IMG/VR virus record: IMGVR_UViG_3300030090_003988
Span: 1-22,875 of that record
Length of the DNA: 22,875 nt
Strand: one strand, 5' to 3'
Source of the DNA: a virus
Every line of letters starts with the position of its first letter. Positions within the stretch are counted from its first letter, which is position 1. Below the pieces are notes generated by a model, which saw nothing but the letters and a program-made list of their open reading frames with translations, was not told the DNA's origin and did no database searches. Below, one piece after another: positions 1-10,497 of the stretch. The position numbers and the translations under genes were made by a program.

Positions 1-414
1 CAGATCAACCCTGGGCGCTATCAGGAATGGATTGAGCCACTCCTGGATAACTGGCTGGTGCAAAACACCCAACCGATTGCTGTTGAATACCGCTTGTGCG
101 ATCCGCGCATTTCGCTCGGAGGGTCGTTTGACTTTCTAATTCAGTACAAGGGCAAAACCATTTTGGGTGATCTCAAAACTGTTAGTACGGCTGGTGCGGT
201 GGAATCACGCAAAGCCGCAACAGCTCAACTGGGTGGATATTTGAACATGATGAACTACCACCACCCAAAACTTTGGATCGATCGATGCGTCACCTTGGTG
301 TCAGGGCCGGGTGTGGCAAAAGTGATCAGCTCAGACCCAGGCGAATGCATCAATGCCTGGGAAGATGCTTGGGGCAGATACTCGGTGAACCTTGAGGTCA
401 AGGAGCCGTTCTGA
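1..414 (+). CDS. PD-(D/E)XK (RecB-like) nuclease, 5'-truncated
   Basis: The last 137 residues of a protein that begins before the window. The visible part has the core of the RecB/Cas4-type PD-(D/E)XK nuclease fold. A Glu stands in AVEYRL (fragment residue 29), then GGSFDFLI gives the first acidic residue (D44), ILGDLKT gives the D-x-K pair (D57, K59), and AQLGGY gives the Q-x3-Y motif (Q76, Y80) typical of this family. Phage members usually act as exonucleases that resect DNA ends for recombination or repair, which fits the ERF annealing protein and RusA resolvase downstream. The stop overlaps the next start as TGATG. The missing N-terminus could hold a helicase or other domain, so the full protein may not be a stand-alone nuclease. 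I am fairly sure of the fold and less sure of the exact role. Confidence 0.8.
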   Translation, partial: QINPGRYQEWIEPLLDNWLVQNTQPIAVEYRLCDPRISLGGSFDFLIQYKGKTILGDLKTVSTAGAVESRKAATAQLGGYLNMMNYHHPKLWIDRCVTLVSGPGVAKVISSDPGECINAWEDAWGRYSVNLEVKEPF

Positions 415-645: not shown

Positions 646-695
646 TGGTATACAAGTCAGGGTTTTTGGTATACCATTTTTATGTCAACAACCCC
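646..695 (+). promoter_or_regulatory. Repeated early promoter/operator element, copy 1
   Basis: Left site TGGTATACA starts at 646 and the perfect palindrome TGGTATACCA is at 667-676, 21 bp apart start to start. A leader with TATGTCAACAACCCC follows to 695, and the ATG of the next gene is at 705. It starts directly after the stop codon of the 76-aa gene. Five copies of this arrangement lie in 646-3973, all upstream of a plus-strand gene. TGGTATACC resembles an extended -10 (TGN-TATANN), but operator or phage-polymerase promoter readings are also possible. Confidence 0.8.
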
Positions 696-704
696 AACCG
701 GTTC

Positions 705-944
705 ATGGCTTACGAGCACTTTTTCCCCCATCCCAACGCAGGCAACAGGTACTACTTGAATGAAGCTCAGCGCCAAGTGGTCATTGAAAATGCTCTCGAT
801 TTGTGCGAAGGCAACGGTTGGGAACCTGACGAAATTGCAAAAGAGCGCGAACTCTATGAAAGCTGGAACAACAAGGATCTGGTAGAAATGCTTTGTGGTC
901 ATGATTGGCTCGGGTTTGTGGGCCAGACCACGGAGATGAAATGA
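705..944 (+). CDS. hypothetical protein, 79 aa, behind element copy 1
   Basis: An unrecognised 79-residue acidic protein. I take the ATG at 705 rather than the in-frame alternative start further upstream because the upstream codons run through the repeated promoter/operator element. The protein starts MAYEHFFPHPNAGNRYYLN and has two probable helices (residues ~20-34, EAQRQVVIENALDLCEG, and ~42-62, DEIAKERELYESWNNKDLVEML). There is no Shine-Dalgarno sequence, and the ATG follows the G-poor leader of element copy 1 by nine bases. A terminator hairpin begins eight bases after the stop, so this is probably a single-gene transcript. No function can be assigned. Confidence 0.75.
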   Translation: MAYEHFFPHPNAGNRYYLNEAQRQVVIENALDLCEGNGWEPDEIAKERELYESWNNKDLVEMLCGHDWLGFVGQTTEMK

Positions 945-951
945 GCAACAC

Positions 952-978
952 GGAGGCCTCAAAAGGCCTCCACTTTTG
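952..978 (+). terminator. Rho-independent terminator
   Basis: A perfect 8-bp G+C-rich inverted repeat, GGAGGCCT (952-959) and AGGCCTCC (964-971), with a four-base loop CAAA, is followed by ACTTTTGAT. It lies between the stop of the 79-aa gene (944) and element copy 2 (980). The T tract is short, so termination may be partial. The order terminator then element supports the element being a promoter. Confidence 0.75.
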
Positions 979-979
979 A

Positions 980-1030
980 TGGTATACAGATCCAGTATTT
1001 TGGTATACCATAGTTGTATCAACCAACCCC
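980..1030 (+). promoter_or_regulatory. Repeated early promoter/operator element, copy 2
   Basis: TGGTATACA starts at 980 and TGGTATACCA is at 1001-1010, again 21 bp apart. The leader TAGTTGTATCAACCAACCCC is at 1011-1030 and the ATG of the 58-aa gene is at 1043. The element begins directly after a terminator hairpin, so the gene behind it needs its own promoter, and this element is the only candidate in the 98-base gap. Confidence 0.85.
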
Positions 1031-1042
1031 AAGGCATTTCAA

Positions 1043-1219
1043 ATGACCATCGACCAACAGATCACTGACCTCAAGGTTCTTCTTAATCAACTCGAAACCG
1101 AGTACGCACACACCATTGCATCTGGCGATTGGGTGGCCTGCTCAGCCGCCAAAGGCAAAGTTGCCAAGGTCCGCAACCGCATCGGCAAGCTCATCAAGGT
1201 CCGCATGGGCATGGCCTGA
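1043..1219 (+). CDS. hypothetical basic protein, 58 aa
   Basis: A short gene of 58 residues starting MTIDQQITDLKVLLNQLETE and ending IKVRMGMA. The N-terminal half is an amphipathic, coiled-coil-like helix (residues 5-22). The C-terminal half is strongly basic (KGKVAKVRNRIGKLIKVR), which could bind nucleic acid. It has no Shine-Dalgarno sequence. The ATG comes 32 bases after the palindrome of element copy 2, the same layout as four other genes here, which is the main reason to accept so short a gene. No homologous family is recognised. Confidence 0.7.
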   Translation: MTIDQQITDLKVLLNQLETEYAHTIASGDWVACSAAKGKVAKVRNRIGKLIKVRMGMA

Positions 1220-1229
1220 TTTTTTCAGG

Positions 1230-1280
1230 TGGTATACAGCTACGGCATTTTGGTATACCATAGTTCTATCAACCAACCCC
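1230..1280 (+). promoter_or_regulatory. Repeated early promoter/operator element, copy 3
   Basis: TGGTATACA starts at 1230 and TGGTATACCA is at 1251-1260, 21 bp apart. The leader TAGTTCTATCAACCAACCCC (1261-1280) precedes the ATG at 1291. Just upstream, CCTGA-TTTTT-TCAGG (1215-1229) forms a small 5-bp hairpin that overlaps the end of the preceding gene. It may be a weak terminator, although its T run is in the loop rather than after the stem. Confidence 0.85.
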
Positions 1281-1290
1281 GGTTCAACTC

Positions 1291-1518
1291 ATGATTCCCG
1301 ACAAGCTGCCCAAGGTCCGCACCATCAAGTACATCAAGCAGGTTTTGGCTAATTACGAAGGCCGCTATCTCAAGCTGAAAGAGAATGACGGCTCCACCTA
1401 TCACTTCGTAAGTGTCGACTTTGATGAGTGGTACTTCGACACCACCGAAGAGCTATTGGCCTGGGCCACCTTCTACTTCTGGAACCGCGACATGCAACCC
1501 GCTGGAGGTGCCAAGTGA
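1291..1518 (+). CDS. hypothetical protein, 75 aa, behind element copy 3
   Basis: An unrecognised 75-residue protein. The N-terminal third is basic (MIPDKLPKVRTIKYIKQVL). The rest looks like a small alpha/beta domain with many aromatics (YHFVSVDFDEWYFDTTEELL, then WATFYFWNRD). The ATG follows the leader of element copy 3 by ten bases and has no Shine-Dalgarno sequence. Its stop overlaps the GTG start of the next gene as GTGA, so the following genes up to RusA probably form one operon driven from copy 3. No function can be given. Confidence 0.75.
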   Translation: MIPDKLPKVRTIKYIKQVLANYEGRYLKLKENDGSTYHFVSVDFDEWYFDTTEELLAWATFYFWNRDMQPAGGAK

Positions 1519-1688
1519 ATACACACGATCTTTTATCTCAAGTTCTTCGAACCTCATACGAGGACAACCATTATTGGAGCGACGACGATCAACCACTTGA
1601 CTACGAAGCCATGACTGCCTTCGTTTCCCAACACGTAAAAGATCTAGAAGAGTTGGTTGTGGATTTTATTGGCAATCGTTTGGCATGA
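1515..1688 (+). CDS. hypothetical acidic protein, 57 aa, GTG start
   Basis: A 57-residue protein that starts at GTG 1515, sharing GTGA with the end of the previous gene. A longer in-frame reading exists upstream but would overlap that gene by about 90 bases, so I prefer the coupled start. The sequence is acidic (DNHYWSDDDQPLDYEAM) with a C-terminal helix (HVKDLEELVVDFIGNRLA). Its stop shares ATGA with the next start. Being in a chain of overlapping genes makes it likely to be real, but I recognise no family. Confidence 0.65.
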   Translation: MNTHDLLSQVLRTSYEDNHYWSDDDQPLDYEAMTAFVSQHVKDLEELVVDFIGNRLA

Positions 1689-2188
1689 ACATCTTCTATA
1701 CCGACGAAAGCCCTTGGGTCTCAGCTCGCACCCTATGCGACAAGCACATCGTGAAAATGCCAGTCGAAACGGTGCAGATGCTGGTCTCAGCTCTAAACCG
1801 ACATGGCATTCAACATCAGGTGCTTACCAAGGCCGGTGCATTGCACAAAGGTGGCTACAGACATCATCCCTGTACTGTTTGGGCAGGTGATTCACGTTCA
1901 AACGCCACTTGGCTTTTGCGGCACGGGTACAGCCTGTGTCATGAATACTTCCGACGCTACGGGCGTGTACACATTGCTTACAAGCAGCTTGGAGAGTTTC
2001 ACCGTGAGCTGTTTTGGTTGCCTGAAGCTGGCTTTACAGAGCCATACCAGGCAATGCCAGATGAACTAAAAATCCCAGGTGATCCAGTCGCTGCCTACAG
2101 GCAATACATGCAGTTCAAAGTCAACAGCAAACCATTCGTCTTTACATGGCGCAACGCGCCACATCGCAAACCCACTTGGATCCACTGA
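1685..2188 (+). CDS. conserved phage protein of unknown function (LCDKHIVKM family)
   Basis: A 167-residue protein of a type I remember from many marine phages without an agreed function. Distinct motifs are the N-terminal MNIFYTDESP, then LCDKHIVKMPVETVQML (about residues 18-34), HHPCTVWAGDSRSN (about 60-73), WLLRHGYSLCHEYFRRYG and, near the end, AYRQYM. The run of conserved His, Cys, Asp, Glu and Arg looks like an enzyme active site or metal site and not a structural protein. It starts on ATGA overlapping the previous stop, and its own stop overlaps the next ATG as TGATG. In this DNA-processing neighbourhood a nucleic-acid enzyme is plausible, but that is a guess from context. Confidence 0.75.
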   Translation: MNIFYTDESPWVSARTLCDKHIVKMPVETVQMLVSALNRHGIQHQVLTKAGALHKGGYRHHPCTVWAGDSRSNATWLLRHGYSLCHEYFRRYGRVHIAYKQLGEFHRELFWLPEAGFTEPYQAMPDELKIPGDPVAAYRQYMQFKVNSKPFVFTWRNAPHRKPTWIH

Positions 2189-2514
2189 TGCAAACAGCTC
2201 AAGATTTGGCCGAAGAAATCATGGCCCTAAAGCTACAAATGCGAGCTTTGCAGGCGCAGCTTGACGAGAAAGTTAACCACTTTTATCATCATGTGTCTAA
2301 CGGCTTAGTTGACGACTACAAAACAGAAGACAGTGCTTTTCAGATTGGAACCATTCGCGTAAAACCAGTGCAAACCCGCAGATGGTCGTACAACAAGCAC
2401 ACGAAGTACCAAATTAAAAAATTGCAAGAGGAAGCACAGCTTTTAGGCTTTGCCAAACTGACCACAACTACATCCTTCAGGTTCACGGATACAGCCGATG
2501 CAAGTGAAATTTGA
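2188..2514 (+). CDS. hypothetical coiled-coil protein, 108 aa
   Basis: An unrecognised 108-residue protein. I take the ATG at 2188 because it forms a TGATG junction with the previous stop; an in-frame ATG 42 bases upstream lies inside that gene. Residues ~4-32 (AQDLAEEIMALKLQMRALQAQL) form a convincing coiled coil, and the C-terminal half is basic and mixed alpha/beta (VKPVQTRRWSYNKHTKYQ). This build, a helical N-terminus with a Lys/Arg-rich domain, often occurs in small phage DNA-associated proteins, but no motif fixes a role. It overlaps the start of the RusA gene by 17 bases, so the two are translationally linked. Confidence 0.7.
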   Translation: MQTAQDLAEEIMALKLQMRALQAQLDEKVNHFYHHVSNGLVDDYKTEDSAFQIGTIRVKPVQTRRWSYNKHTKYQIKKLQEEAQLLGFAKLTTTTSFRFTDTADASEI

Positions 2515-2902
2515 GGTGATCGGACGTCCAGCCCCGCAGGGCAGTAAAAACCAGTTTGGTGCTGAATCCAGCCAGTTTGTAAAGCCCTGGCGAGTTGATG
2601 TAAGGTACGCTGCTGTTGAGGCTCTACCCGACGATTGGGCAACAGATCGTGCTGTAGCTGTAGACATCACGTTTAACTTTGTACAGCCCAAAAGTCACTT
2701 CACGTCTAAGGGCAAGCCCAGCAGTAGCTGGACACAGTACCCGATCGGCCGAAACAAAGGCGACATTGACAAACTTTGCCGCAGCACCCTTGACGCTTTG
2801 ACTGGGGTGTTGTTTGACGATGATGCCCAAGTGGTCTACCTCAACGCAAAGCGCCAATGGTCCAGCACTGCTGGAGCTTTAATTTCTGTTTTCAACCTTT
2901 AA
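2498..2902 (+). CDS. rusA: RusA-family Holliday junction resolvase
   Basis: A 134-residue RusA-like endonuclease, close to the usual family length of 120-140. It shows the N-terminal signature GRPAPQGSKN (residues 9-18), the RPKSHY-like stretch QPKSHF (63-68), and the catalytic region KGDIDKLCRSTLDALTGVLFDDDAQV (88-112) split here as KGDIDKL, LDALTGV and FDDDAQV. The acidic residues expected to bind Mg2+ are D89, D91 and one of D107-D109, matching the two-Asp and one-Asp pattern of E. coli RusA. RusA cuts four-way DNA junctions as a dimer; in phages it resolves recombination or branched replication intermediates. It overlaps the upstream gene by 17 bases and works naturally with the ERF protein encoded 1.8 kb downstream. 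Confidence 0.93.
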   Translation: MQVKFEVIGRPAPQGSKNQFGAESSQFVKPWRVDVRYAAVEALPDDWATDRAVAVDITFNFVQPKSHFTSKGKPSSSWTQYPIGRNKGDIDKLCRSTLDALTGVLFDDDAQVVYLNAKRQWSSTAGALISVFNL

Positions 2903-2905
2903 TCC

Positions 2906-3349
2906 ATGACCGAGTTCAACGAATTTCTCAAAACCGATTCAAACTATCAGCTGATATTGACTCGACATCAAAAGGTACATGCAGAAGCCAGAGGCCTTGG
3001 TTTCGAAATCATGCGTGAAGCTCGCAAGGTAAACGGTCTTTTGTTGGCAACTGATCTTTTGCTTGAGAAACTCATGGAGCATGAATGTGTTGAAGAGGGT
3101 GACAGCCGTGACAAAGAGCTTCAACTTCTCACCGGATGCAGTTCTGATAGCTGGTTTGGCACAATCAGCATGACCCTTGATTATGTTCGTGATCAGATTG
3201 TCGAACAATGTCAAGCGGTGGTATTGGCACAACACAATTACGTTAAGGCCCAAGAAAGTGCATCGCAGCATTGTTCAAGCTTGACCGCTGCCAGAGAAGA
3301 GGCAGAAAAGCGTTTCAAGAAACAGCAAGCTGATAAAGCTAAGAAGTAG
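2906..3349 (+). CDS. hypothetical helical protein, 147 aa
   Basis: An unrecognised, almost wholly helical 147-residue protein (MTEFNEFLKTDSNYQLILTR at the start). The C-terminus is a long charged helix ending in a Lys-rich tail (FKKQQADKAKK). A central stretch with Cys, Asp and Ser (HECVEEGDSRDKELQLLTGC) shows no known motif. It begins three bases after the RusA stop, with no clear Shine-Dalgarno sequence, and is the last gene of the unit that starts at element copy 3. Its TAG stop overlaps the degenerate left site of element copy 4. Confidence 0.7.
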   Translation: MTEFNEFLKTDSNYQLILTRHQKVHAEARGLGFEIMREARKVNGLLLATDLLLEKLMEHECVEEGDSRDKELQLLTGCSSDSWFGTISMTLDYVRDQIVEQCQAVVLAQHNYVKAQESASQHCSSLTAAREEAEKRFKKQQADKAKK

Positions 3350-3398
3350 GTTTACAGGTGCGGGCATTTGGTATACCATAGTTATGTCAACAACCCCC
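3348..3398 (+). promoter_or_regulatory. Repeated early promoter/operator element, copy 4 (degenerate left site)
   Basis: The right palindrome TGGTATACCA is intact at 3369-3378. Exactly 21 bp upstream, at 3348, the left site reads AGGTTTACA, two changes from TGGTATACA, where it overlaps the TAG stop of the previous gene. The leader TAGTTATGTCAACAACCCCC follows, and the ATG is at 3408. Keeping the 21-bp spacing in a decayed copy suggests that the left site matters but tolerates change. Confidence 0.8.
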
Positions 3399-3407
3399 AC
3401 CTGATTC

Positions 3408-3587
3408 ATGACTCAACCGCTCGGTCGGGCTCGCTCTTTGGCGCTTCAGCTCGACGCCTTTGAACTTCTTGGCAGAACCACCATTAACGAGGCTGAGGCA
3501 ATTATTGCTGACGTCATTTGGTGCGTTGGCGAAGACACATCAGATGACCGTATCTGTGCTCGGGCACGTCACTACTTTAAGGCTTGA
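3408..3587 (+). CDS. hypothetical protein, 59 aa, behind element copy 4
   Basis: A short helical protein of 59 residues, starting MTQPLGRARSLALQLDAFEL and ending ARARHYFKA. It has two likely helices (residues 8-21 and 27-40) and an acidic turn (GEDTSDD). It begins 29 bases after the palindrome of element copy 4, without a Shine-Dalgarno sequence, and is followed three bases later by the next gene. The position behind the element and the absence of other candidate frames support it. No family is recognised. Confidence 0.7.
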   Translation: MTQPLGRARSLALQLDAFELLGRTTINEAEAIIADVIWCVGEDTSDDRICARARHYFKA

Positions 3588-3590
3588 TTC

Positions 3591-3815
3591 ATGACCGAAT
3601 TTCACGTGAATCTTCGCAACGCAGATCAGCCTTGGGAGCGATCAATTCTTGCTCGTTTTTCTGGCAGCACTGCCGAACAAGACTCCTATCGATTTGCCGT
3701 TGAGTTTTGTGGTGGGCCAGCAGACTGTTCAATCACTGAGGCGGTCAAGTTTCTGGCAAAAGCCAAACCGTTTGTTAACGCAACTGTCGATGTCACTTGC
3801 AGCCAAACTTTTTAA
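3591..3815 (+). CDS. hypothetical protein, 74 aa
   Basis: An unrecognised 74-residue protein that starts MTEFHVNLRNADQPWERSIL and ends VDVTCSQTF. It looks like a small alpha/beta domain, with strands near residues 2-9, 28-34 and 62-69 and a helix near 46-56 (SITEAVKFLAKA). It lies three bases after the previous stop and two bases before the next small gene, so all three belong to the transcription unit of element copy 4. The start shares the context GATTCATG with the gene before it. Confidence 0.7.
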   Translation: MTEFHVNLRNADQPWERSILARFSGSTAEQDSYRFAVEFCGGPADCSITEAVKFLAKAKPFVNATVDVTCSQTF

Positions 3816-3817
3816 TC

Positions 3818-3922
3818 ATGATCAGCATCATTCGTAAACAGCGTCCCGTTCTGCCAGGAGAATCACTGCCTCCTGCCCCACCTGTCTGGAACAAACCGCA
3901 GCCGCAACTGCCCAAAATCTGA
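3818..3922 (+). CDS. hypothetical proline-rich miniprotein, 34 aa
   Basis: A possible 34-residue protein, MISIIRKQRPVLPGESLPPA followed by a Pro- and Gln-rich tail ending QLPKI. Its ATG is two bases after the preceding stop, and its TGA is immediately followed by the left site of element copy 5, so the frame exactly fills the space between gene and promoter. That fit is the main support, since the protein is too short and biased to judge by composition. It could be a peptide that binds a host protein, but nothing in the sequence shows this. Confidence 0.5.
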   Translation: MISIIRKQRPVLPGESLPPAPPVWNKPQPQLPKI

Positions 3923-3973
3923 GGGTATACAAATCGGCTGATCTGGTATACCATAGTTCTATCGACAAACCCC
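3923..3973 (+). promoter_or_regulatory. Repeated early promoter/operator element, copy 5
   Basis: The left site GGGTATACA starts at 3923 and the palindrome TGGTATACCA is at 3944-3953, 21 bp apart. The leader TAGTTCTATCGACAAACCCC ends at 3973 and the ATG is at 3977, the shortest gap of the five (23 bases from the palindrome). This is the last copy in the window; I found no match in the remaining 18.9 kb. Confidence 0.83.
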
Positions 3974-3976
3974 ACC

Positions 3977-4732: not shown

Positions 4733-5392
4733 ATGGCAAACGAGTTGGTAAAAGCACTCTGCGGGTTTTACGCAGACGTCGGCGTCATTCAACAAGCTGC
4801 AAAGAGCAACTACGGTCAGTTCGCTGATCTGCCAACTGTTCTCTCCACCGTCTTGCCTGCATTGGCAAAACAAGACCTGATCCAGTCGCAAACCTTTGAG
4901 CCTGCCCCGGACGGTACGATCATTCTCGTAACAACCCTGATGCACGTCAGCGGTGAATCGATCGTGTCTCGACTGCCGTTGATCCTGGGTCGAAACAGCA
5001 ATGCGATGTTTGCTCTTGGCGGATCGATCACTTACTTCCGCCGCTACGCACTGCTGTCAATTCTTGGGTTATCTGCGGATGTAGAGGCAGATCCTGAGGA
5101 TTACGTTGAGCCCGCAACCCCTGCTCCTGTAGCTGCTAAACCTGTTAAGGCAACGACAGGGCACAAGTCGCTAATCAACCCACCGCTGGACACTGAAAAA
5201 GGACCAGACGGAAAGTCAGAGCGTGACAAGGTCATCGACAGCATTAAAAAGCTGCCGGAGAAAAAAGCCGCACAAGTGCTCGAAGATTTCCGCACGGAGT
5301 TCAAAGTCACTGGCCCTACCGTTGCCAATCACATCACGTCTCAAGCTCATGCACAATTCATCGCGGACACCATCAAATCTCTCGCCAAGTGA
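4733..5392 (+). CDS. erf: ERF-family single-strand DNA annealing protein
   Basis: A 219-residue recombinase of the ERF superfamily, named after P22 Erf. The ERF domain spans about residues 5-122, with YGQFADLPTVLSTVLPAL (27-44), the beta segment GTIILVTTLMHVSG and the family hallmark GSITYFRRYALLSILGL (97-113) followed by an acidic stretch (SADVEADPEDY). An Ala/Pro linker (126-140) leads to a charged helical C-terminal domain (~160-219). ERF proteins form rings on single-stranded DNA and anneal complementary strands, working with an exonuclease and an SSB. Candidates for both lie nearby (the RecB-like fragment at the left edge and the gene at 5895). The start is ATG 4733, after the structured leader. 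The stop shares GTGA with a frame that stops after seven codons. Confidence 0.93.
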   Translation: MANELVKALCGFYADVGVIQQAAKSNYGQFADLPTVLSTVLPALAKQDLIQSQTFEPAPDGTIILVTTLMHVSGESIVSRLPLILGRNSNAMFALGGSITYFRRYALLSILGLSADVEADPEDYVEPATPAPVAAKPVKATTGHKSLINPPLDTEKGPDGKSERDKVIDSIKKLPEKKAAQVLEDFRTEFKVTGPTVANHITSQAHAQFIADTIKSLAK

Positions 5393-5393
5393 A

Positions 5394-5639
5394 AACATCA
5401 GATGCGCTATAGAGCACCTCCGCGAGGTTGCCGACAAAGATTATTCACGTTTGTACTTTGACTCACGATACGCACGCTGGAAAGAGCAAACCCTTATGGC
5501 GCACACAGTTAAGATCGCTTTACAGATCCTCAGCTGTCACCCGCAAACGGCTCGTTGTTTACAACCCGTACAAGCAGAAGTACCTGATGTCATCGGTAAT
5601 CGAGATCTCAAAAAAGAATTTCGACATCTGGACGCATGA
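5394..5639 (+). other. coding-like segment without a start codon (possible frameshifted gene)
   Basis: In the third frame, after the ERF stop, an open stretch reads IRCAIEHLREVADKDYSRLY then FDSRYARWKEQTLMAHTVKI, which looks like a genuine helical protein. No ATG, GTG or TTG opens it near its 5' end. The natural coupled start, GTG 5389 (GTGA with the ERF stop), is in the first frame and stops at 5410-5412; one base of slippage around 5404-5409 would join the two. The convincing part runs to about 5545, where the first frame takes over. It may be a degraded gene, a sequencing indel or programmed frameshifting. Confidence 0.45.
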
Positions 5640-5745
5640 CATACAATGCGCGCAGGTTTTCTTTACCGAAGAAGAAGCCAAAAATGCCGCTGCGATTCTC
5701 TCGCGGATGGTTGGATTTGACGTTTACTTAAAGCACATTGACTGA
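5428..5745 (+). CDS. hypothetical protein, start uncertain
   Basis: The first frame is open from 5413 to 5745. The part after about 5540 (RKRLVVYNPYKQKYLMSSVI, then FFTEEEAKNAAAILSRM and FDVYLKHID) looks like a true phage protein of the kind that records a measured value or position on a beta-rich scaffold. I do not recognise the family. No ATG opens it: the given start is TTG 5428, TTG 5458 is another, and the first 35 residues are an odd Ser/Thr/His/Arg mixture better explained by the overlapping third frame. A real start near 5535 may have been lost. Its end overlaps the ribbon-helix-helix gene by eight bases. Confidence 0.5.
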   Translation: MPTKIIHVCTLTHDTHAGKSKPLWRTQLRSLYRSSAVTRKRLVVYNPYKQKYLMSSVIEISKKNFDIWTHDIQCAQVFFTEEEAKNAAAILSRMVGFDVYLKHID

Positions 5746-5893
5746 CTCAAGCACTGATCGAAACCGAGCTGTTTTTACGGCACGTTTGCCTGACGAACTT
5801 GCTGACAAGTTGCGTCATTACATGGCTGATCGAAAGGTCACAGCCTCCAAAGCGATCAACACTATTCTGACCAAATTTTTCTACAACACCTGA
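5738..5893 (+). CDS. ribbon-helix-helix (Arc/CopG-like) DNA-binding protein, TTG start
   Basis: A 51-residue protein with the build of an Arc/MetJ/CopG ribbon-helix-helix repressor. Residues 10-17 (RAVFTARL) form the DNA-contacting strand, PDELADKLRHYMADRK (18-33) the first helix, and TASKAINTILTKFFYN (35-50) the second, with the polar-hydrophobic alternation typical of the fold. Such proteins dimerise and bind short palindromic or tandem sites. The start is TTG 5738, because an in-frame TAA lies at 5729-5731 and the only ATG is halfway through the fold. It overlaps the previous gene by eight bases and ends one base before the next ATG. It is the only clear DNA-binding regulator in the window and so a candidate partner of the repeated early element. 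Confidence 0.75.
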   Translation: MTDSSTDRNRAVFTARLPDELADKLRHYMADRKVTASKAINTILTKFFYNT

Positions 5894-8237: not shown

Positions 8238-8722
8238 AGCGCACACTTCTGGCACTGGGTGTGACACTCTTGGGATTGCCTGCCCAAGCTGACATCACCC
8301 ATAAAATCCAATCAAGCATTCAGCTGAGTGTCGATGGAGCGGGATCTGTCGCAGCCAAAATTCCCTCTACATACTCTGTATCTGGTTCAAACATCACTTT
8401 GGACACTGCTGGTGGTCTTGGCACCCTTACTGCCGGTACCGCTGTTGGTTACACTCCTGCCGATTACAGCGTTACAACTGCTGGCGACGCTTTTAGCTAT
8501 ACAGAATCGTTTATCGAAGGAGACGACACACCGTCAGCCACCACCGTGACTTCAGGCGTGGTTGGCTCGTTGCCAATGCTTGGTTCCACCACCACAACTT
8601 CCGGTGGTGTCGCAGGTGATCTCGATGGAACTATTGATTCTGGTGGTGCTCTTTCAATCACTGCTGGTGGTGCTGGCACGACCGCGATCGGACAAGTCAT
8701 CCAAGAATTGACCATCAAGTGA
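8234..8722 (+). CDS. secreted Thr/Gly-rich protein, 162 aa
   Basis: A 162-residue protein with a clear Sec signal peptide, MKRTLLALGVTLLGLPAQA, probably cleaved after residue 19 (A-Q-A). The mature part is very rich in Thr, Gly and Ser and predicted to be all beta (STYSVSGSNITLDTAGGLGT, later TTTTSGGVAGDLDG). Such composition is typical of extracellular or surface-exposed repeats. It starts on ATGA and ends on TGATG, so it is coupled to both neighbours. I recall this kind of gene next to the 'VSSTAAP' family in marine cyanophages. Its function is unknown; display at the host envelope or incorporation into virions are both possible. Confidence 0.75.
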   Translation: MKRTLLALGVTLLGLPAQADITHKIQSSIQLSVDGAGSVAAKIPSTYSVSGSNITLDTAGGLGTLTAGTAVGYTPADYSVTTAGDAFSYTESFIEGDDTPSATTVTSGVVGSLPMLGSTTTTSGGVAGDLDGTIDSGGALSITAGGAGTTAIGQVIQELTIK

Positions 8723-9899: not shown

Positions 9900-10497
9900 T
9901 TTTTTTGATCGTTTTTTTAACGATAGGTTTTACCGCTTTGAGCAGAATGTTGCCTAAAGGTCTCGCGAGAATAGCCGCCGTAGTCGCCACCGCAGCAACA
10001 GTCGCAGTCGTAGTAACAAGGCTCGGAGCAGGAAGATAGTTGCCGATGATCGACGGTAAGTCCAACGGTTTGACCTGCTGCTCACACTTTCCCTCCACCA
10101 CCTCGTAGCCAATGATGACAGCAGTTTGCGATTTGTTTTTCGCACCTAAAGGAATTGCGTCAGGGGGAGGACATGGTAGTTCTTCCTCTACATTGGGCTT
10201 ATCAGCTGTTGTTGGCGCAGCTGGTAGGGGTGCAGAAACCGGCTGTCTTGAGCTGCCAGTCGGTTTTTCCTCAGCGTTAGGTCTTGGGACTGGTGCTGTT
10301 TGGTGCGTGTGTTCACCCGGTGTAAAGTCCAGCGGTTCATAATGCGGGATCTCCCCGCCCGGTATATCTGCCACTGGAAAACCCAGCATTAACGTGACAG
10401 GTGGCTCTGTTGGCATCGTTGGCGGCGGCAAAATCTGCCTTGCTCCAACACTGGGCACGCCTACCGTTCCAACACCAATCTCCTGAATCTCTGGCAT
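9820..10497 (-). CDS. Pro-rich protein with C-terminal membrane segment and basic tail, 225 aa
   Basis: A 225-residue protein with three parts: a Pro-rich, low-complexity N-terminal half (residues 1-115), a short conserved-looking core (QTAVIIGYEVVEGKCEQQVK, ~124-143), and a C-terminal hydrophobic segment (VTTTATVAAVATTAAILARP, ~161-180) followed by a Lys-rich tail (KPIVKKTIKKIKEKLGKK). It looks like a tail-anchored membrane protein or a virion protein that meets a membrane. I recall similar proteins beside the VSSTAAP family in cyanophages. Its start codon overlaps by two or three bases that of the plus-strand gene at 10496, and its 3' end overlaps the secreted gene by 80 bases. Confidence 0.75.
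   Translation of the reverse strand: MPEIQEIGVGTVGVPSVGARQILPPPTMPTEPPVTLMLGFPVADIPGGEIPHYEPLDFTPGEHTHQTAPVPRPNAEEKPTGSSRQPVSAPLPAAPTTADKPNVEEELPCPPPDAIPLGAKNKSQTAVIIGYEVVEGKCEQQVKPLDLPSIIGNYLPAPSLVTTTATVAAVATTAAILARPLGNILLKAVKPIVKKTIKKIKEKLGKKVAVESVFQRQKFQRSLRK

Follow-up and report, generated by a model that had tools for sequence, protein, structure and literature searches.

The Repeated Element and Its Setting

The window analysed here (bases 1–22,875 of the 32,858-base IMG/VR record IMGVR_UViG_3300030090_003988) was found to carry five copies of an intergenic element built on a paired GGTATAC motif, each standing upstream of small open reading frames (ORFs). An earlier note on this DNA had placed the copies at 646, 980, 1230, 3348 and 3923; all five were recovered, all on the + strand and all between genes, and no further copy was detected when the search took in the whole record, including the other 10 kb outside the window. 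The second site, the palindrome TGGTATACCA, was perfect in every copy, the two sites started exactly 21 bp apart in every copy, and an ATG followed 23–32 bases past the palindrome, all as described in that note. Two further details held for some copies only. The first site was TGGTATACA in copies 1–3, but AGGTTTACA in copy 4 and GGGTATACA in copy 5, and TAGTTNTATC was exact in copies 2, 3, and 5, but was replaced by TTTTTATGTC in copy 1 and TAGTTATGTC in copy 4. The pattern TGGTATAC-N13-TGGTATACCA gave three matches compared to none in 100 dinucleotide shuffles. The leader RNA was weakly structured in four of the five copies. Positions are given in Table 1.

Table 1. Positions of the element copies and of other features of the early region in the window.
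Feature	Position	Strand	Remarks
Exonuclease gene	1–414	+	Early region
Copy 1	646–707	+	Site 1 646–654 (TGGTATACA); site 2 667–676 (TGGTATACCA)
Copy 1, predicted promoter		+	-35 649–654 (TATACA); -10 672–677 (TACCAT); +1 684; from the comparison of 21 copies
Copy 1, leader		+	GTCAACAACCCC, then ATG at 708
ORF78 (78 aa)	708–944	+	No assigned function; cassette between copies 1 and 2
Intrinsic-terminator-like hairpin	952–971	+	GGAGGCCT-CAAA-AGGCCTCC, then ACTTTT; directly 5′ of copy 2, ends the ORF78 cassette
Copy 2	980–1042	+	Site 1 980–988; site 2 1001–1010
Copy 2, predicted promoter		+	-35 983–988; -10 1006–1011; +1 1018; ATG 1043 (58-aa ORF)
Copy 3	1230–1290	+	Site 1 1230–1238; site 2 1251–1260
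Copy 3, predicted promoter		+	-35 1233–1238; -10 1256–1261; +1 1268; ATG 1291
Pyrimidine dimer glycosylase gene	1685–2188	+	Pfam Pyr_excise, E = 1.4e-11
RusA gene	2498–2902	+	Early region
Copy 4	3348–3407	+	Degenerate site 1 3348–3356 (AGGTTTACA); site 2 3369–3378
Copy 4, predicted promoter		+	Better -35 3351–3356 (TTTACA); -10 3374–3379; +1 3386; ATG 3408 (59-aa ORF)
Copy 5	3923–3976	+	Site 1 3923–3931 (GGGTATACA); site 2 3944–3953
Copy 5, predicted promoter		+	-35 3926–3931; -10 3949–3954; +1 3961; ATG 3977 (80-aa ORF)
Erf gene	4733–5392	+	Early region
Putative ribbon-helix-helix protein gene (51 aa)	5738–5893	+	Arc/CopG-like; TTG start; candidate GGTATAC binder

The + strand from position 1 to about 6,500 carries genes that, by their content, are presumably early, including many small ORFs without assigned function, and the - strand from about 7,000 to the end carries the late genes (endolysin, tail, tape measure, head, portal, and terminase). 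The closest portal proteins were those of the Synechococcus siphophage KBS-S-2A (75% identity), of S-H1 (71%) and of the Prochlorococcus phages MED4-117 and MED4-184 (68%), so that the virus is a marine cyanosiphophage without close cultured relatives. The 78-aa ORF after copy 1 was found in this phage only, among its relatives. Copy 3 is followed by a 75-aa ORF, a 57-aa ORF, the pyrimidine dimer glycosylase gene, RusA and others. The glycosylase is likely to be a phage enzyme for repair of ultraviolet damage, and DNA similar to its gene is present in the marine Synechococcus phages S-CRES3, S-B68, and S-N03.

Distribution of the Element

Pattern and protein scans showed the element to be present in six further IMG/VR contigs, which brought the total to 21 copies in seven contigs, the window's included (several locus ids denote one and the same contig: L008 = L058; L009 = L045 = L052; L010 = L047 = L054 = L059; L011 = L043; L044 = L075; L046 = L053 = L061 = L072). 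The 21-bp phasing was kept in 19 of the 21 copies. In the other two, where the sites lie 22 and 23 bp apart, the first site is degenerate, as would be predicted were site 1 and its phasing important in combination. No element pair was found in the cultured phages KBS-S-2A, S-H1, and MED4-184 or in the phage AG-345-A17 from a single-amplified genome, one full element used as a query against 50,697 phage records returned chance matches only, and further pattern scans returned the same contigs together with unrelated matches.

Three other ideas about the motif were rejected. A host origin was sought in 257 Gb of bacterial genomes, where 24 pair matches were found compared to about 30 calculated by chance (17 fixed bases, two strands), and the contexts printed were unlike the element. 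The 21-bp spacing, equal to seven codons, is not due to coding, as the frame relative to the ATG differs among copies and relatives show shifts of 1–2 bp. Avoidance of GTATAC outside the elements was suggested by the finding that all nine occurrences in the record lie inside elements, yet the number to be expected elsewhere under a dinucleotide model is only 1.7, and there is no depletion. Many 6-bp palindromes were absent from the whole record with the elements masked, among them CAATTG (0 vs. 15.1 expected), GTGCAC (0 vs. 12.9), GAGCTC (0 vs. 10.1), and ACATGT (0 vs. 8.6), a pattern resembling that of phages under restriction pressure.

Predicted Promoter Organization

In the alignment of the 21 copies, with the T of site 1 as position 1 (site 1, positions 1–9, consensus TGGTATACA; site 2 from position 22), G23 to C29 (GGTATAC) and T32 were invariant, and the spacer separating the sites was weakly conserved at most positions. 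Bases 30–31 vary (CA, AA, or AC) and thereby break the palindrome, whereas T27, A28, and T32 are retained in all copies, which is the TANNNT frame of a sigma70 (SigA) -10 hexamer. This frame is also intact in copies from L044 and L061 in which site 2 lacks the last palindromic bases and reads TACAAT or TACACT. Bases 4–9 read TATACA (4/6 consensus), TTTACA (5/6), or TTGACT (5/6), exactly 17 bp from the -10 in 19 aligned copies, and the degenerate copy of L008 was read at 18 bp, so that a TTGACA-like -35 lies within the usual 16–18 bp. The register of the promoter is fixed by the L061 copy at 8619, in which a near-consensus TTGACT replaces site 1, 17 bp from TACCAT. Because of this copy, the invariant T after the palindrome and the 17-bp spacer, TACCAT was taken as the predicted -10, and not TGGTATACC; the latter had been proposed as an extended -10, which was not borne out, the three bases 5′ of the -10 being GTA, with no TG, in every copy. 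Every copy has A or G at base 39, the +1 expected from a -10 at bases 27–32, and this base is followed by TC, then AACAACCCC, then ATG, giving a leader of the type (A/G)TCAACAACCCC. From this layout, the element is very likely to be a promoter. SigA-like promoters precede early genes of cyanophage Ma-LMM01 (PMC5780444).

Some related observations were made on leaders and promoters. In L044 (4–45) an ATG coincides with the predicted +1, and the transcript could be leaderless. Phage S-H1 (L049) has CACCACCC-type leaders just 5′ of the ATG, upstream of the genes ending at 3486, 6193, 7032, 7966, 13357, and 13923, which resemble the CAACCCC leader of the window elements, and C/A-rich leaders close to the start codon may be widespread among cyanosiphophages. 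In the more distant relative L055, two promoter-like stretches upstream of early genes (2640–2680 and 5365–5400) contain TTGCTT, 17 bp, and CATA(C/G)T with GTATGCC directly 5′ of it.

Probable Paired Operators

The GG 5′ of the -35 and the GGTA 5′ of the -10 are conserved although they lie outside the promoter consensus. Conservation beyond what the hexamers need argues for a second reader of the DNA. It could instead be supposed that these are plain host-type promoters travelling with gene cassettes, GGTATAC being promoter sequence kept by recent copying, with no phage regulator involved. Canonical hexamers, spacing and +1 would be in line with this, as would the relatedness of the copies through duplication and recombination, and a good site 1 is missing from copy 4 and from the L061 copy at 8619. 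However, GG and GGTA are kept across lineages with diverged spacers and genes (DNA about 70% identical to L061) and no promoter rule requires them, and 19 of 21 copies have held to the 21-bp spacing; we consider plain promoters unlikely.

The self-complementary sites might also pair in the transcript, as a possible 8-bp stem with a 15-nt loop acting on mRNA stability or translation. This was considered extremely improbable: no covariation was seen, the observed score being reached by 280 of 500 shuffles with departures almost all uncompensated, the L061 copy at 8619 has no stem, and the stem would lie upstream of the transcript if the predicted +1 is correct.

The centres of the GGTATAC sites lie near -34 and -13, over both hexamers contacted by RNA polymerase, which favours a repressor; an activator would be poorly placed there. 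The elements are probably phage operators. The comparison with the six contigs supports the earlier proposal of a phage-specific promoter/operator family heading several early units, apart from its extended -10; the cooperative binding and joint switching of the copies also suggested there may occur. Besides, a conserved block TTACCATGRTATTGTCATTYGGTAAAC, in L008 with TGGTAAACCA, was seen in a divergent region before the exonuclease gene (L008 9400–9445, L010 8245–8290) and is perhaps a variant operator. Upstream of the exonuclease gene in distant relatives, three to four tandem AGGTCGTTTTTGACCT-type inverted repeats of iteron- or operator-like appearance were found (L062 6787–6867, L068 5356–5440, L067 8368–8448, and L063 7506–7611).

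Gene Cassettes at the Elements

L008, L009, and L010 were each shown to contain a single element where the window has element 1, ORF78, the terminator, and element 2. The alignments on either side of this place in L008 share precisely the element (10313–10363), the left part of which is copy 1-like and the right part copy 2-like. Elements 3 and 4 are also edges of gene-content differences. In comparisons with L008, L009, L010, and L043, 5 of 11 distinct breakpoints fell at elements, compared to 6% expected from their share of the region (P about 3e-4). Among these five, one reflects sequence divergence and not a gene change, and without it P is estimated at about 0.003. Element and ORF thus behave together as a promoter-bearing cassette, and the elements also bound promoter-ORF cassettes gained or lost between relatives. 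Both the breakpoints and the single L008 element at the exact place of the window's element-ORF78-element arrangement could also be put down to an element that serves primarily as a repeated boundary for cassette shuffling, its promoter being secondary, but such breakpoints are expected from any repeated sequence and the conserved positions follow the plan of promoter hexamers and operators. A primary role in recombination was therefore considered very unlikely.

Early promoter–stem-loop (PeSL) cassettes of T4-type phages, reportedly described by Arbiol in 2010 and Comeau in 2014, consist of an early promoter joined to a stem-loop or terminator at each cassette. Shuffling of cassettes at the elements was found in the present case as well, but a terminator or stem-loop for each cassette was not: a strong one stands before copy 2 only, and a weak 5-bp stem before copy 3. 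We know of no PeSLs with an operator pair.

Candidate Regulator and Proposed Mechanism

A 51-aa protein encoded on the early strand matched the PHROG Arc-like repressor family (E = 2.3e-4) and was identified as a putative ribbon-helix-helix (RHH) protein. Orthologues with 78–92% identity are present in five further contigs (L043, L044, L045, L046, and L047), and the gene was found in every relative whose contig covers the locus, that of L008 ending short of it. Residues F13 and R16 are invariant. The AlphaFold model (mean predicted local distance difference test score 71.5) has two helices, with the strand unformed in the monomer, and its structural neighbours in the PDB are mostly RHH proteins (Arc, VapB, CopG, AmrZ, and MatP; template modelling score about 0.6). 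Like the element, close homologues of the gene were not found in KBS-S-2A, S-H1, and MED4-184. In the more distant L055, the RHH protein is about 50% identical with the strand HFQVR instead of VFTAR, and neither a GGTATAC pair nor a clear repeated dyad of its own was found there. In L061, the Erf gene is directly preceded by an element and is itself upstream of the RHH gene, which has the same orientation, so that the proposed repressor may be under its own control.

That this protein binds the GGTATAC sites is plausible from co-occurrence and fold, but we would put it at somewhat below an even chance. The same paired sites might be read by another binder, such as a NikA-like RHH protein, a divergently encoded 188–191-aa protein, a ParB-domain protein or a host factor, or might serve an activator. 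Relatives do encode NikA-like, 188–191-aa, and ParB-domain proteins next to the early region; the segment with these genes is absent from the window record. A host regulon is improbable given the chance level and foreign contexts of the bacterial matches, and the position of the sites disfavours activation; taken together, these options were regarded as rather improbable. Adjoining genes for a radical SAM/SPASM protein and a double ParB_N-domain protein were also observed in relatives (L010 3975–5967, - strand).

The reading we favour, as reasonably probable, is that the elements are repressible early promoters, all with paired GGTATAC operators, and that the RHH protein is the likeliest binder. 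Host RNA polymerase with the primary sigma factor would read the -35 (TATACA or TTTACA) and, 17 bp on, the -10 (TACCAT), and transcription would begin at the purine 8 bases 3′ of the palindrome, so that a short (A/G)UCAACAACCCC leader would precede the ORF. A phage DNA-binding protein, most likely the 51-aa RHH protein from the same early strand, would read GGTATAC twice, once per hexamer, 21 bp apart on the same helix face, and once enough of it is made the promoters would be shut off together.

Several findings weigh against this repressible-promoter reading. On the promoter side, the -35 agrees with the consensus at 4/6 bases in most copies, a promoter consensus scan detected copy 4 only with no promoter excess over shuffles, and the +1 purine gives weak support once orthologues are collapsed (eight classes, chance about 0.01). 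On the side of the binder, the RHH assignment is based on co-occurrence and fold: neither the Pfam search nor the PDB sequence search turned up a significant RHH match, a profile search against PDB sequences gave nothing meaningful, and no fold match had an E value below 0.18. Relatives hold a second RHH-like gene (L010 6122–6406, NikA-like) and a ParB-domain gene as possible binders. Moreover, tandem sites of Arc and MetJ are spaced roughly one turn apart, and 21 bp between dimer centres is wider.

Comparison with Known Systems

In the SIRV2/Aca8 system (PMC11065993), as here, one near-identical regulatory sequence around a promoter core stands before many small unrelated early genes, and a small virus DNA-binding protein (Aca8, about 55 aa) is proposed to silence early genes later. 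However, the promoter there is archaeal (TATA box and transcription factor B recognition element, BRE) compared to a sigma70 promoter with two GGTATAC sites, and Aca8 is a winged helix-turn-helix protein whose own gene bears the motif, whereas the candidate here is an RHH protein.

The parallel with mycobacteriophage start-associated elements drawn in the earlier note was judged apt. The start-associated sequences (SAS) and extended SAS (ESAS) of cluster K (PMC3203893) are likewise repeats just 5′ of start codons in the non-structural half of the genome, with an inverted-repeat pair and a conserved ATG-proximal sequence, for which a hairpin is also disfavoured and a DNA-binding protein suspected. 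They differ in that the ESAS has 17-bp imperfect repeats with a variable 4–13-bp spacer, compared to 8–10-bp sites with fixed 21-bp phasing, and in that the SAS is an AGGAG-containing 13-bp GGGATAGGAGCCC by the start codon, compared to (A/G)TCAACAACCCC, a CAACCCC leader without AGGAG; promoter hexamers inside the sites are a feature of the window element.

T4-type PeSLs (cited in PMC4503421) resemble the element as early promoter copies mediating the shuffling of small early genes, and differ in combining promoter and stem-loop or terminator, of which the window has a strong one beside copy 2 only. Arc of phage P22 and CopG (PDB 1par, 1ea4) offer the likeness of a small RHH protein proposed to stop early transcription from promoter sites, but operator sequence and dimer spacing differ, and binding in the present case is a prediction. 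The intergenic repeats of halovirus HF2 are, by its abstract (PMC8707807), conserved in a virus genus and proved promoters; they are archaeal, and no paired operators are described in that abstract. No published description of the GGTATAC paired motif was found, which, given partial coverage of the literature, is weak evidence of absence.

It is possible, though rather doubtful, that the elements form a bacterial-virus counterpart of the SIRV2/Aca8 regulon, in which one RHH protein silences interchangeable promoter-ORF cassettes for host takeover or anti-defence through double operators in the -35 and -10. If so, a newly acquired cassette would already be wired into the timing of the phage, a concrete case of gene cassettes arriving with a ready-made regulated promoter; five exact transcript starts are predicted and a testable repressor and operator are named. 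Little is known of cyanosiphophages, and for the majority of their early genes no function has been assigned; the element would then be a sequence tag for early interchangeable genes of uncultured marine phages, an approach that earlier revealed anti-defence genes in archaeal viruses.

Since defining features of the cluster K SAS/ESAS and of PeSLs fail, the element is filed as a variant of the repeated phage early promoter-operators, new in motif sequence and layout and of a kind already known. It is nearest to SIRV2/Aca8 in its logic, to the cluster K SAS/ESAS in its appearance, and to the T4 PeSLs in its mobility.

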